From Pseudomonadota bacterium (GTDB taxonomy: Bacteria; Pseudomonadota; Gammaproteobacteria; Steroidobacterales; JBCBZW01), in assembly GCA_039193195.1 (NCBI GenBank), contig JBCCWS010000032.1, forward strand, positions 1-64,000: 64,000 bases of DNA, written 5' to 3'. Shown in pieces: positions 31,020-64,000 of this stretch. The notes beneath the pieces are model-generated. The model had not been told where the DNA came from. It did no database searches and saw only the letters and a list, made by a program, of their open reading frames with translations. Numbering within the stretch: the first letter of the stretch is position 1; each line of letters begins with the position of its first letter. The translations under genes and the position numbers were made by a program.

Positions 31020-34000
31020 ATGACTGCGAAGATCCGTCTGCAGGGACGTCGACGACAGATCGACGATGGCACCAAGAGCGAGTTGCCCACTTCCACCAGG
31101 CGCGTCAAAGCGAAGGTGATCCTGGATGTGGCCTGTGACGCTGGCGCCCGCGCGGGCGGCGAGCGCGTCGAAGCGCAGGCGCGCGGAAACGATCTGCTAG
31201 AGGTCGATTTGGGCGATGGCCTGGTGCTGTGGACCACCGTCGAGCAGTACCTCGAGGACACGGGCGATCAACCCTTCAAGGCGCGCGCTCGCTCCCCCCA
31301 AGATCTGCCTCTTGAGTATCCCGTGCGCAATCCTCGCGGCACCCGCGGGCGGGTGGCGTGGGCGGTGAAGGGCCTGAAGACCGTCGGCATCGACCTGGTG
31401 GAGATCGGTGCAGACGCGACCATCGACCTGCTGGCGGAGAAGATCGAGAAGGATCGGTTAGCGAGCACCGGTGACCAGGTGGGCGGCTTGTATCGCTTCG
31501 ACGGCGAGGTGCTAGGTGAGTGCGTGACGAGTCAGGCGCAGATAGCCACGGACGAGGGGCCCATTCTGGTCCTCATTCACGGCACCTTCTCTACCACGCC
31601 AGGCTCCTTCGCCAGCCTCAAGCGTGCCCAGGCCGAGAGCTGGAATCGCTTGCTGAGCACCTACGGCGATCGCATCTATGGCTTCGATCACCGCTCGATC
31701 ACGCAGAGTCCCGCCGAGAACGCGCGCGACCTCCTTGAGCTACTGCCGAGCGACACGCCGGTACATCTAATCAGCCACTCGCGGGGTGGACTGGTCGGCG
31801 AGCTGCTGTGTGCTGGCCGCGGCGCGAAGGGCCGCGACGAGCCGGTGTTCGACGCGAGCGCGATCGGCCTGTTTCCCCGCGACGAAGACCAGCAAGCGCT
31901 GCGGGCGCTAAGCGATCGGTTTAGGAAGGATGGGTCACCCGTCGAGCGGTTCGTTCGCGTGGCCTGCCCGGCTCGCGGCACCACCTTGATGGAGGGGCGC
32001 TTCGACCTGTGGCTGTCGGTCGTCATCAACGTGGCAAAGGCTTCGGCAAAGGCCTTGGGAAAGGCCCTCGGCGTGCCCACAGGTGGCCTCGCCGGCGATC
32101 TGGCAGACGTCGCGAGCATCGCGGCGGACGTGCTCGCCGCGGCCGCCGAACTGCGTGCCGATCCGATGAAACTGCCGGGCTTGGAGTCGATGCTGGTCGA
32201 CTCGCCCACGGTGCGCGTGCTGAATACCTTTCCGACGCTAGAAGCTGACCTCACGGTAGTGTCCGGTGACTTCGAGGGCAGTGGCATCGCCGGTCGTCTG
32301 GCGGAGTTCGTCAGTGATCGGTACTTCGGTGAAGACCACGACCTGGTGGTGCCCACGGCCTCGATGAAACGCGGCATTCGCCGCCCGGATGGCCGCCTGT
32401 TTCACGTGCCGAAGGTGACCCACGGTGGGTACTTCTCTCATCCGCAAAGCGCCGCGGCGATTGCTGATGCGCTTCGGGGAGAGGAGATGAGCGGCTTCGA
32501 TAGCCTGCGAGGACGTGCAGAGGCGGTCGAGAAAGCTCACAGGGGGGCGAGCAACGCTGAGGGTGAGCTGGTCGTCGACGAGGCGAAGCCTTGGTTGTAC
32601 GTCCTGCCTGGTATCTTGGGCTCGAACCTGAGCGTGGATGGCAACAAGATCTGGCTCGACTTCTTCGATCTGGCGCGCGGGTGCATCAACCAGCTTGCCG
32701 TCGACGCGGCTGGCGTGGAGGCTACGTCGCTGAACGCCGGAGCCTACGGCAGCTTCGTGAAGTACGCGCGGGAGCACTTCAATGTAGTGCCCTACGCCTA
32801 CGACTGGCGCCTCTCCTTGGAGGCGTTGGGCGACCAGCTGGCGGATGAGCTTGAGGGTGCCCTCACCCAGGGCCAGCGGCCGATTCACTTGATCGCCCAT
32901 TCGATGGGCGGGTTGGTGGCTCGCGCGATGATGGCGCGTCGGCCCGAGGTGTGGGATCGCATCGTGGAGCCTGGCGGTCGCCTGGTGATGGCAGGCACAC
33001 CGAACGCGGGCTCCTACGCGAGCGTGCGCTCGCTGCTCGGGCGGGGCAAGATGATCTCCTTGCTGGCGCTGGTCGATCAGCTGAACGACAAGGAGTCGTT
33101 GCTCGACGTCGTCAACGAGTTTCAGGGCTACCTTCAATTGCTCCCGCAGCCCGGCAGCGAGCCCCACCAGCAAGCGGACCACTTCGCGTTGGCCACCTGG
33201 CGCGAGTACCGCGACCTGCGAGAGCGCGGGTGGTCTGTGCCCAACGGCAACATGCTGCGCCAAGCGGGCGCGGCGGCGCGACGGGTGCTGGACGTCCCCT
33301 TGCGACATCACCAGCACATCAAGTACGTCGCTGGCTGTGCACGCGAGACGCCCGCGGGCATTGCCCTCGACGAGGGCAAGATCCGCGTCGTGGGTAGCCG
33401 CCGTGGAGACGGTACCGTCTTGTGGGACGGGGGCATTCCCAAGGGTACACAAGCCTGGTACGTGCGAACGAAGCACGGCAATTTGCTCGATCATCGCAAG
33501 TCGTTTTCCGCCTACCGCGATCTGCTCACGCGCGGTACCACGGCGGAGCTGTCCCAGGAGCCGCCGGTTGCCCGCGATGGCGATGCACCGTTTTTCCTCG
33601 AGGACGATCCGGATCCTCAGTACTTCCCCGACGAGGACTCGATCTTCGACGATTACCTCGGTGGCGCCAGCGACGGCTGGGCGAGGGAAACGGTGTCCGT
33701 GAGGGTCAGCGTGGTCCACGCGGATCTGCGTTGGGCTAAGCACCCGGTGCTGATCGGCCACTACCTCGATGACGGGATCTACAACGCGGAACAGGCACTC
33801 GACGAGACCTTGGGCTACCGCCTGAGCCATCGCTTGAGCCTCGACGATTACCCGGGGGACCTCGGCTCAGCGGCCGTTTTCTTTGCCGACGAGCACGCCG
33901 GCGAGACCAAATGCAAGGGCGCGGTGGTCGTTGGCCTCGGCGTGATCGGCGACTTGGAGCCTGGAGCGTTGGTCACGACGTTAGCCCGCGGCATGCGCAG

Positions 34001-59945: not shown

Positions 59946-60031
59946 GTGTCGGCGACTTCCTGTTGTGGGAGCGAGGGAGTTGGCTTAAGCCTGCGCCGCC
60001 GTGATCTGGGAGATCTCACGTCGGCCCTAAG

Positions 60032-60196
60032 CTAGTGTCCTGAGTTGGAAGTTCGTTGATGAATTCGCACGCGAGTTTTTGTCCCTGGGCGCGGCGCGAC
60101 GACGAGCGTGGCAGGTCCCACGGGAGGAGGAGCAACGTGTTCAGGGGCGAAAGGGTGCCGCGAATTCATCAACGAACTTCTAACTCAGGACACTAG
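60032..60196. mobile_element. 157-bp MITE (type B), second copy, with CTAG target duplication
   Basis: The element spans 60036-60192. Terminal inverted repeats are 33 bp with a single mismatch, and CTAG flanks both ends (60032-60035 and 60193-60196). It differs from the copy at 57106-57262 at four positions. The centre has CGTGG-CAGGTC-CCACG near 60107-60122. The clean target duplication indicates this copy transposed after the two sequences were already similar. No gene is disrupted. Confidence 0.9.
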
Positions 60197-60376
60197 CAAG
60201 TGCTTTCGCTGAATGAGAGGGAGCGTGTATGGTCGCGCACCCATCAAGGCGACAACAAGTGGATGCGTGACCGGCCGAAGGCGTCTAGCCGCGCCGCTCA
60301 CGAGGTCTAAGGAAAACGAGGGCGGGGGCTCAAGCCCGCGACGCCGCCCTGGCGAGAAGGATGCGCCCGCCTAGCG

Positions 60377-61003
60377 CTATCGTGTTTCGCGGCGTCGTGC
60401 GTAGGCGATGCCCACCAGGCCCCACAGCACAAGCGGTATGCTGGCAGGCTCTGGGATGGCGACCTGACCGATGTTGATCGTCAGGGCGAGGGCAGCGTAG
60501 GCGGCGTTGCCGTAGTCGGAGGCCGAGATCGATACCGGGGTGCCCGCCAGGGAGATGTTGTTGATGTCGAGGTCGACGAGCAGGGATCCGGACCAGCTCA
60601 CCGAGTCGCCGTCGTTGAAATTGAAGTTGCCGCTTCCGTCCACACCAACGCCGAAATCGTCCCTGTCGGTATCGGAGCCATCGTTGTCTATGTAAGCGAG
60701 GTCGATCGAGCGCGTATTTCCAGCAATGGTCAGGGTCGCATCCCCGGTCACGGCAGTCACTTCGACGTCGTTGTCGTTCGTGAAGTTGATCAGGTCTTGC
60801 CAGGTGTCGTTGTTGGAGAGGCCATCGTTGTCGTCAAAGAAGCCGCTGCCGATGGCGGTGGTGGATCCGGAGAAGGTCCACACGGTCTGGCCGCTGCCCG
60901 CGTCCCCGGTGATGTCGACCACCAAGCCGGCCTGACTGACGAGAGAGCTGAGCAGGAGCGTGCTGCCGAGGAGGCTGCGCAGCGCCGGTAGTTTCCAAGT
61001 CAT
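60377..61003 (-). CDS. PEP-CTERM sorting-domain protein
   Basis: The ATG at 61003 is preceded by GGAAG five bases upstream and is preferred over the ATG four codons earlier. The 208-residue product has a signal peptide (LLGSTLLLSSLVSQA), a beta-rich, Asp/Asn/Gly-rich body (VDITGDAGSGQTVWTFSG, DGDSVSWSGSLLVDLDI) and the sorting tail AIPEPASIPLVLWGLVGIAYARRRETR (PEP motif, hydrophobic span, basic end). Exosortase should cut at the PEP region and the protein ends up in the exopolysaccharide matrix. It lies downstream of prsT on the same strand and behind a sigma-54 promoter match. Confidence 0.93.
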   Translation of the reverse strand: MTWKLPALRSLLGSTLLLSSLVSQAGLVVDITGDAGSGQTVWTFSGSTTAIGSGFFDDNDGLSNNDTWQDLINFTNDNDVEVTAVTGDATLTIAGNTRSIDLAYIDNDGSDTDRDDFGVGVDGSGNFNFNDGDSVSWSGSLLVDLDINNISLAGTPVSISASDYGNAAYAALALTINIGQVAIPEPASIPLVLWGLVGIAYARRRETR

Positions 61004-61103
61004 GTTCACTTCCATGTGATCCAGGCCAAGCCGTTAGCGAGGGTGGCGGCCGTCATGAGCCGCGGCGACCCTCAGGTCCTCGGGATGTCGTCAATTAACT
61101 ACT

Positions 61104-61122
61104 GCAAGCAAGTTCTAAGCCA
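61104..61122 (-). promoter_or_regulatory. Sigma-54 promoter of the PEP-CTERM gene
   Basis: On the minus strand the sequence reads TGGCTTAGAACTTGCTTGC: the -24 GG and -12 GC are separated by exactly ten bases, and both TGGC and TTGC boxes match the RpoN consensus. The expected start of transcription is near 61097, leaving a leader of about 94 bases. Upstream, two direct repeats of CATTAGA (plus strand 61136-61142 and 61159-61165, 23 bases apart) may bind an enhancer-binding protein. RpoN and the PrsK/PrsR pair are known to drive PEP-CTERM genes. Confidence 0.7.
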
Positions 61123-61239
61123 TAGAATTCCAACTCATTAGAATCAGTCAGTTATGATCATTAGAGGAGATCACCAGCCGAGACTTGTACGAGCCTCTGT
61201 AAATCCAATCGACAGCTTGCGCAGGTGCCACGAGACCGC

Positions 61240-64000
61240 TCACAGCTCCTTCATCAGACGCTCGGCGTCATCGCGGGCGGCAAACTGCCCTCCACTGGCA
61301 AGCGCCTGGCGCAACACCGCGCGCGCCTCCTCACGCTCGCCGGCGCGGGCGAGGCCCGCCGCCAGGTGGTATCCGATCTCGCCAGCGCCACGGTCGGCCT
61401 GCCACGCATCGCGCAGGATCGAGATCCCGTCGTCCACCTGGTCATCCAGAATCAACATCCAGCCGTATGTGTCCTGGATGGTAGGGCTGGCCTTGGCGAG
61501 ATCGAAGGCACGGCGGGAGGCCTCCAAGGCACGAAAGTCGCCTAGCTCGGAGTAAGCCCAGGCGAGGTTGTTCCAGGCCACGACGTTCTCCCGATTAAGG
61601 AGCAGCATGCGCTCGTAGTCTGCGGCTGCGGTCAACAGGTCTCCGGCGCCGTGGGCGTGCGCGGCGGCAGCCATCAGTACCGTCTGATCCTCCGGATACG
61701 CGTCGAGCCAGTCTCGCAGCACCTGCTGCGACTGGGGATGTCCGTCGCGCTGGCGCGCACGGTACAAGCGCATCACCATGGCCGTCGATTGTCGTTCCTC
61801 AAACACCGCCTCGTAGGCCCGCACCGCAGCAAGGTGCTGCCCGCGGACCATGGCGATGTCTCCCGTAAGCACCTTGCTCAGGGCCGTAGTGCCATCTGCC
61901 GCTACCAGGCGCGCGAGGAACGCGTCGGCCTCATCGGCACGGCCCCGATCGATCGCGATACGCGTGGCCAGATCCAAGCCCGCACCGTCCTGCGGATGGG
62001 CGCGGAGCAGCTGACCGATCGTCAGAGTCGCCTGAGACAGGTCACCGCTTGCGTACTCGGCTCGAGCGAGATTTCGCAGGGGCTCGGCCGCCGTGCCGTC
62101 GATGCGCAGCGCCCTGCGCAGGCTCTGCGCGCCATCCGCCACCTTGCCCTGGCCGATCAAGGCCACGCCGAGGGCGTTGTGTGCGCTCACCGCGGTCGGC
62201 TGGGCGACGACCATCTCGCGCGCCACCTCCTCAGCCAGCTGGTACTCCCCAGTCTTAGCCAACATGTTAACTAGCTTGATTCGCGGCGCCAACGCCGCCG
62301 GATCGACCAGCCGAGCACGCTCAAGGCTGACCCTTGCACTGCTCACATCGCCCGCTCGCAGCTGTAGCTGCGCCAAGGCGTCGAGGGCCAGCGCATCGTC
62401 CGGGTAGTCCGCGGTAAAGGCCAACAGTCGGTCGACCGCCCCCACCTCATCGTCAGCGCTCGAGGCAAGCTTCGATAGGTTGATCGCCGACGTGGTGTGG
62501 CTCGGATCGAGCGCCAGCGCTTGTTCGAAGTGGCGTGCCGCCGTCGATGCATCCTCGCCAAGGGCGACCAAGCCTTGCACGCTGCGAGCGGCAGCCGACG
62601 CCGGGAATTGCTTCGCCGCCGCCGCGGCCTTGCGGCGAGCGGCTTGCGTGTCGCGCTCGAGGAGGCTGAGCAGAGCGTCGAGGACTGCCGCCCGCTCGGC
62701 GTTGGCGGCATCGCGCCATTGCGCCCCATCGAGGAGCGAGGCCGCGGCGTCGTAGCGTTGGGTGAGCAAATAACCGGTGAGCAACTCCAACCGGGTGCCA
62801 TCATCCTCGGGGGTCTCCTGGAGCACACGCTCCCATAGGGAAACCGCGGCTGCGTAGTCTCCGGTCAGCGCATTTGCCTCGCCGAGGAGCGACATCACTT
62901 CCCCCCGACTCAGTGCGACCGGTGCATCGTGCGGACCTGGCCGCGACTCGGCGCCGCGACGCGCTGCCGCCAGCAGAGTGCGCACCTGCGGATCATCAGG
63001 CCGCACCACCGCCATTCGCTCGAGGAGGGCGGTCGCTTGCTCGTACTCACTTCGTGCCAGATAGATCGTGGCCTGCAGGATCTGCGCCGCCACGAAACCC
63101 GGCACTTCCACCAACACTCGCCCAACAAGATCGTTCGCAAGCACAAAATCCCTGCGCTCGAAGGCAGTGCGCGCCCGAAGGTACTTGATGAGCGCATGGT
63201 CCGCTTGCAGTTGATTGAGATCGTCGATCGTCTCCCCTGCCTGATCGAGCTTACCTTGAGCAAGTTGCGCCTCTGCCAGCGCCAGGCTCAGCTCCCAGCG
63301 CAGAGGGCGATGCTCCTCCAGAAGTGGCTGAGCGAGCGCTGAGCGGAACTGCGACTCGGCGTCCTCGCTCCGGCCCAGCTCGTGCAGGAAGCGTCCGTAG
63401 TCAAGGCGCACGGCAGGCGAATTCCCGTGGGCCGCGACGGCGCTCTCGTAGGCCCGACGAGCGCTCGCGACGTCGGCCTTTGCCAGCGAGGCGCGCGCGA
63501 TGCCAAGTAGCGCTCGCTCCTCCTCGGCGTCCAAGGCCAGGGCGCCCTGGTAGGCATCGACTGATCGATCAGCGTCTCCCAGCATTTCATAAGCCAGGGC
63601 GCTGAGGGCCAACACCTCGGCGGTCTGCGCCTGGGCCTGGGTCAGCTCAGTAAGCGCCTCGTCCGCGCGCCCTAGGAGAAGCAATGCCTCCGCCATCTTC
63701 GCAATCGTGGCCTGCTGATCGAAGCCGAGTTCACGGGCGCGCGCCAGTTCCTTCTCGGCGGTCGCGGCATCGCCGAGGGTCAGCGCGGCGGCGCCCAGGC
63801 GGTAGCGCGTCCGCGCATCACGCGGATCGATCGCCACGGCGTTGCGCAGCTCGATGATCGCCTCGCGGTAGCGTCCGTATTCCTCAGCCTCGAGGGCGCG
63901 AGACATCGGCTCGGGTGCCCCTTCATCGGCGCAGCTAGCTGCCAGCCCCAGGATCGTCACCGCAAGGAGCGCCCTCCCGGCGGGCTGCGAACTTCCTCGA
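61240..64000 (-). CDS. prsT: PrsT, TPR lipoprotein of the PEP-CTERM/exosortase system (5' end beyond window)
   Basis: The frame remains open to the right edge: codons before 63960 read ...AGRALLAVTILGLAASCADEG, which is a lipoprotein signal with lipobox LAASC. So the true start lies beyond position 64000 and at least 919 residues are present here. The body is a long run of about twenty TPR-like units (LRNAVAIDPRDARTRYRLGAAAL, LYRARQRDGHPQSQQVLRDWLDA). This is the size and layout of PrsT, the TPR lipoprotein of PEP-CTERM/exosortase loci. It probably assists export or sorting of PEP-CTERM proteins and polysaccharide. The PEP-CTERM gene follows 236 bases downstream on the same strand. Confidence 0.85.
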   Translation of the reverse strand, partial: RGSSQPAGRALLAVTILGLAASCADEGAPEPMSRALEAEEYGRYREAIIELRNAVAIDPRDARTRYRLGAAALTLGDAATAEKELARARELGFDQQATIAKMAEALLLLGRADEALTELTQAQAQTAEVLALSALAYEMLGDADRSVDAYQGALALDAEEERALLGIARASLAKADVASARRAYESAVAAHGNSPAVRLDYGRFLHELGRSEDAESQFRSALAQPLLEEHRPLRWELSLALAEAQLAQGKLDQAGETIDDLNQLQADHALIKYLRARTAFERRDFVLANDLVGRVLVEVPGFVAAQILQATIYLARSEYEQATALLERMAVVRPDDPQVRTLLAAARRGAESRPGPHDAPVALSRGEVMSLLGEANALTGDYAAAVSLWERVLQETPEDDGTRLELLTGYLLTQRYDAAASLLDGAQWRDAANAERAAVLDALLSLLERDTQAARRKAAAAAKQFPASAAARSVQGLVALGEDASTAARHFEQALALDPSHTTSAINLSKLASSADDEVGAVDRLLAFTADYPDDALALDALAQLQLRAGDVSSARVSLERARLVDPAALAPRIKLVNMLAKTGEYQLAEEVAREMVVAQPTAVSAHNALGVALIGQGKVADGAQSLRRALRIDGTAAEPLRNLARAEYASGDLSQATLTIGQLLRAHPQDGAGLDLATRIAIDRGRADEADAFLARLVAADGTTALSKVLTGDIAMVRGQHLAAVRAYEAVFEERQSTAMVMRLYRARQRDGHPQSQQVLRDWLDAYPEDQTVLMAAAAHAHGAGDLLTAAADYERMLLLNRENVVAWNNLAWAYSELGDFRALEASRRAFDLAKASPTIQDTYGWMLILDDQVDDGISILRDAWQADRGAGEIGYHLAAGLARAGEREEARAVLRQALASGGQFAARDDAERLMKEL

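Follow-up and report, generated by a model that had tools for sequence, protein, structure and literature searches.

What switches on the PEP-CTERM surface-protein gene that lies beside a prsT paralogue in this genome, and which parts of the DNA upstream of it matter for that control? The original prediction placed the cis-site for RpoN/PrsR control at positions 61104-61165 of the window (the whole 64,000-nt stretch analysed), and saw it as a sigma-54 promoter together with twin CATTAGA repeats. The features discussed below are as follows, G001 being a sister genome of the same family.

60377..61015, minus strand: PEP-CTERM surface-protein gene predicted to be driven by the promoter (open reading frame and profile matches)
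61096, minus strand: predicted transcription start (+1), placed from the -12 position, 12 nt past the -12 C (61108)
61107..61122, minus strand: sigma-54 -24/-12 site TGGCTTAGAACTTGCT (pattern and score matches; conserved in G001)
61123..61197, minus strand: 75-nt spacer from box to promoter, '74' helical class (also 75 nt in G001)
61136..61142, plus strand: CATTAGA copy 1 (exact match; not conserved)
61142..61154, plus strand: IHF-consensus match AATCAGTCAGTTA (WATCARNNNNTTR, 0 mismatches), 19 nt before TGGC
61159..61165, plus strand: CATTAGA copy 2 (exact match; not present in G001)
61198..61213, minus strand: PrsR-type box GTCGATTGGATTTACA (Haft motif 1), predicted PrsR enhancer (pattern scans; core kept in G001)
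61240..63960, minus strand: prsT paralogue, a TPR lipoprotein (TIGR02917), preceding the PEP-CTERM gene

Gene neighbourhood and regulator genes

The PEP-CTERM gene and its adjacency to prsT were both claimed at the outset, and both hold. The protein carries a IPEPASIPLVLWGLVGIAYARRR tail that scores 15.6 bits against a cut-off of 16 in a whole-protein scan and 19.5 bits, above the cut-off, in the genome scan; the neighbouring gene on the minus strand matches TIGR02917 at 403 bits (cut-off 312). The gap between the two genes is ~225 nt and non-coding. The ATG at 61003, which is kept in G001, is a likelier start than the one at 61015, placing the start codon 103 nt rather than 91 nt past the sigma-54 site. 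Downstream of the PEP-CTERM gene (~60031-60200) there is an inverted repeat with arms of ~38 nt (1 mismatch) ~90 nt apart, a MITE-like element or an insertion-sequence remnant.

Both rpoN (TIGR02395, 475.6 bits) and prsR (TIGR02915, about 737.4-737.6 bits, cut-off 502.6), on which the original prediction depended, are present in the genome, as is prsK (TIGR02916, 703 bits), all above cut-off. Contig C17 holds an epsB-prsK-prsR-prsT-export-chain-length-kinase cluster, with 7/7 proteins above their family cut-offs. There are thus two copies of prsT, one on C17 after prsK-prsR (495 bits for TIGR02917) and the lower-scoring one of the window. The latter sits outside the exopolysaccharide cluster, and its order with the PEP-CTERM gene is kept in G001.

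The sigma-54 site and the PrsR-type box

The TGGC-N7-TTGC claimed for the coding (minus) strand is present at 61122-61108. This pattern is found five times in the window where 2.98 would be expected, with at least five in 18/100 shuffles, and this near-chance count means that the -24/-12 site on its own is no proof of a promoter. Across the genome it occurs in 506 places (264 for the reversed control pattern), and a scan with TGGC-N7-TTGC only was rejected as an uninformative promoter finder. ACG often follows TGGC in the sigma-54 consensus and is missing from the window site; the weight matrix used for scoring was built from the general consensus.

What decides for the -24/-12 site being real is its upstream context. 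A PrsR-type box (defined as GTCG-N6-TTTACA, 16 nt) lies at 61213-61198 on the minus strand, outside the interval of the original prediction and 75 nt upstream of the sigma-54 site, counted from TTTACA to TGGC. The genome has 31 profile matches to PEP-CTERM, and the upstream regions of 30 loci were taken. Ten of the 30 combine a box with 0-1 mismatch and a sigma-54 site scoring at least 12, and the other 20 have neither element (at least 2 box mismatches, best following sigma-54 score at most 10.8); on the opposite strand, as a control, 1/30 reaches a box with 1 mismatch. All 10 strong sigma-54 PEP-CTERM promoters carry the box 62-94 nt further upstream. Searching the other PEP-CTERM promoters for the same -24/-12 site, as proposed at the outset, brought up nine more of this type in the genome. 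The exact box occurs in 11 places in this genome, compared to one for the reversed pattern, and 9/11 precede a strong sigma-54 site by 62-75 nt. Together with prsK-prsR and rpoN, these findings support the claim of RpoN/PrsR control.

The promoter is also kept in the sister genome. A search of contigs with the PEP-CTERM protein gave no confirmed relative, and the sole ortholog (74% identical, likewise behind prsT) came from G001, the one other genome of the family covered. Its promoter retains the box core, the -24/-12 site and the 75-nt spacing; the spacing is the same although one 9-nt insertion and one 9-nt deletion separate the aligned spacers.

A few boxes of the same genome (G000) lie elsewhere. 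An exact box at G000:C4:37762-37777 (minus), with a sigma-54 site AGGCACGGCCGTTGCA 67 nt on, precedes a 101-aa protein that is PilZ-like by eye, a possible link to c-di-GMP. At G000:C5 ~31,790-31,998 (minus), an exact box and a strong sigma-54 site (16.8) face an intergenic region that closes with a strong hairpin and a run of T, in which no convincing gene was found. This 203-nt stretch folds better than 200/200 shuffles (z -3.1) and has no match in Rfam; we suggest it as a candidate PrsR-dependent small RNA. Box and sigma-54 site were also seen at G000:C29:24145-24237 and G000:C17:41156 (both minus), not before PEP-CTERM genes: one precedes a possible 48-aa peptide and the other faces the 3' end of a candidate glycogen-debranching-type gene, so assigned by eye.

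Box-to-promoter spacing across the class

The composite, taken as an exact box, a 50-80 nt spacer and the sigma-54 pattern, was sought across the class in 274 genomes (300 requested), with prsR called at E <=1e-150. It was found at 127 sites in 57/274 genomes, and the reversed control gave none. prsR was present in 73/274 genomes; 49 had both, 8 the composite only, 24 prsR only and 193 neither (Fisher p 1.7e-27, indicative since the 274 genomes are related and non-independent). Against the PrsR reading stand the 24/73 prsR genomes without an exact composite, the exact pattern being strict, and the 8/57 composite genomes without prsR at E 1e-150. Because the pattern does not catch longer spacings, GGGC/CGGC promoters or boxes with one mismatch, the composite counts are lower bounds; spacers of 81-111 nt added 33 further sites, and spacers of 20-49 nt gave only noise (3 matches versus 3 controls). 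A loose regular expression for PEP-CTERM tails downstream of composites proved a poor test and was set aside (69/116 forward versus 36/116 in reverse complement); tightening the expression gave tails at 45/116 sites versus 3/116 in the control.

Of 163 sites in total over the three spacer ranges, the 144 in prsR genomes were used for the analysis of spacing. Box-to-promoter spacings are quantised, with peaks at ~52, 63, 74, 85 and 96 nt and near-empty gaps between them. The periodicity at 11.0 bp reaches R 0.746, compared to a maximum of 0.265 in 2000 simulations of a smooth null, and with one site per genome (50 genomes) the minimum R in 300 draws was still 0.575. The ten promoters of the window's own genome agree with this (R 0.83). 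The 19 sites set apart in prsR-negative genomes include some at class spacings (G127: 74, 63; G207: 75, 64, 62; G198: 75, 96), so the missing prsR there may be a matter of threshold or assembly.

An IHF-type element in the spacer

The IHF consensus is given as 5'-WATCARxxxxTTR-3' (PMC3897727), and WATCARNNNNTTR occurs between the predicted enhancer and the promoter of the window as AATCAGTCAGTTA. Anchored on TGGC, the spacers of 116/127 composite sites were examined, the 11 in prsR-negative genomes being set aside. The reverse-complement consensus (at most 1 mismatch) stands 18-20 nt before TGGC at 35/116 sites and the direct form 5-7 nt before it at 18/116; one or the other is found at its fixed offset in 52/116, these offsets not being chosen blind, as the 30 loci in which they were first noticed also form part of the full set used for the test. 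At least one such match was present in 28/49 genomes, and equal windows upstream of the box gave 1/116. Within the window's own genome, a match with no more than 1 mismatch stands at offset 19 in only 4/10 PEP-CTERM promoters; in G001 the match has 2 mismatches and lies at offset 20.

Instead of IHF, this spacer element might bind HU or another regulator, or it might be no more than a curved, AT-rich stretch. AT content in the final 45 nt of the spacers is indeed high (0.63-0.70 by class), and minus- and plus-strand IHF matches stand almost back to back, an arrangement that differs from the usual one-sided IHF consensus. Against this, composition-matched shuffles give a mean of 1.23 and a maximum of 5 sites in 300 rounds, versus the 52 observed at exact offsets, and both subunit genes, ihfA (TIGR00987, 156.9 bits) and ihfB (TIGR00988, 152 bits), are in the genome above cut-off. 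IHF between enhancer and promoter is moreover usual at RpoN promoters (PMC7962754). We consider a non-IHF element rather unlikely, and it would leave the rest of the preferred explanation, a PrsR-regulated sigma-54 promoter, standing.

CATTAGA repeats and alternative promoters

The claimed twin CATTAGA repeats exist as two exact copies, at 61136-61142 and 61159-61165, and their position just upstream of the promoter, 23 nt (~two helical turns) apart, could suggest a site for a specific activator of the PEP-CTERM gene. Two identical 7-mers separated by 8-40 nt arise, however, in 501/2000 shuffles of the 225-nt intergenic region, and the window holds 419 such pairs, so that by chance frequency the pair is by itself unremarkable. 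Neither copy was found in the aligned G001 promoter, which retains box, promoter and spacing, and among 116 related spacers any copy is present in only 2, both copies in one, that of the window itself. Copy 1 overlaps the IHF-consensus match by one base, and the copies flank the IHF core. We therefore rejected the repeats as a cis-site; they are probably incidental and a side issue, and a dedicated activator binding them is highly improbable. It is equally hard to credit that the sigma-54-like match is a chance occurrence and that another promoter in the 225-nt region drives the gene. The chance-level count of TGGC-N7-TTGC alone in the window and the 20/30 PEP-CTERM genes of this genome without such a promoter would fit that reading, whereas the box and promoter occurring together at a phased distance, also in the sister genome, argue against it. 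Of the original cis-site, then, the RpoN/PrsR promoter stands and the CATTAGA part falls, with the likely activator site at 61198-61213, beyond the interval first drawn.

Comparison with known systems

Haft 2006 described a 17-nt motif 1 ending in TTTACA, a spacer with a mean of 62.8 nt (32-92) and a sigma-54 motif, the pair preceding 99/167 proteobacterial PEP-CTERM genes with PrsR as the predicted binder, and a start codon 71 +/- 38.5 nt past motif 2 within a large non-coding region (PMC1569441). The window resembles this arrangement, having a TTTACA-ended motif, a spacer, a sigma-54 motif with -24(GG)/-12(GC), a ~225-nt gap, a corresponding start-codon distance and a PEP-CTERM gene, with PrsK, PrsR, PrsT and RpoN genes in the genome; its 75-nt spacer compares with the 32-92 range subject to motif edges that may differ by a few nt (the box being 16 nt as defined here and 17 nt in Haft 2006). 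That paper nowhere mentions IHF, nor does its section on the motifs report any helical quantisation (PMC1569441).

In Aquincola tertiaricarbonis RN12, the -24/-12 of pepA was mapped by primer extension and is RpoN1-dependent, with a predicted enhancer upstream (PMC9850573). The window shares with it a PEP-CTERM gene beside prsT, a -24/-12 site and a predicted upstream enhancer, but the order differs: pepA is upstream of prsT, whereas here prsT is upstream of the PEP-CTERM gene. As in IHF-assisted sigma-54 promoters, an IHF consensus lies between enhancer and promoter; unlike in those, IHF is here deduced from sequence only and has a fixed place across many genomes (PMC7962754, PMC3897727). A literature search, with most subscription journals outside its scope, returned no earlier report linking PEP-CTERM with IHF or helical phasing.

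Proposed mechanism and significance

We conclude, with a rough probability of 0.9, that the interval belongs to a sigma-54 promoter under PrsK/PrsR regulation, with a predicted PrsR enhancer and IHF bend. Box, IHF-consensus match and -24/-12 site stand in this order at the spacings given, alongside the protein genes and the conservation described above. By analogy with established sigma-54 biology, which also suggests the dependence on RpoN and PrsR, sigma-54 polymerase would sit closed at 61122-61107, and phosphorylated PrsR would bind ~seven helical turns (75 nt) upstream, to the GTCG-N6-TTTACA box at 61213-61198. With the spacer bent by IHF at 61142-61154, PrsR on the right helical face would touch and open the polymerase, and the PEP-CTERM gene would be expressed alongside the exopolysaccharide system. 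PrsR, IHF and sigma-54 polymerase most likely form a short, phase-locked DNA loop. Separations of ~5-9 helical turns are short for unassisted looping, and this would account for the phasing as well as for the bend site.

For the class as a whole, we lean towards PrsR promoters being phase-locked loops of this kind, in which the box would lie an integral number of ~11-bp turns from -24, with five turn classes or more, the bend would be clamped at a fixed place ~20 nt before TGGC by IHF or a relative of the DNABII type, and the regulon would extend beyond sorting substrates (the PilZ-like small protein; the structured, terminator-ended RNA).

The promoter itself is one well-supported addition to a class predicted in 2006 and of a kind already known; what deserves further attention is the helical phasing and the IHF-type site at its constant place. 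Across the class, these two features offer a testable geometry for PrsR activation of exosortase-sorted surface proteins, which through those proteins bears on floc and biofilm formation, and they allow PrsR regulons to be searched for with a more precise pattern.
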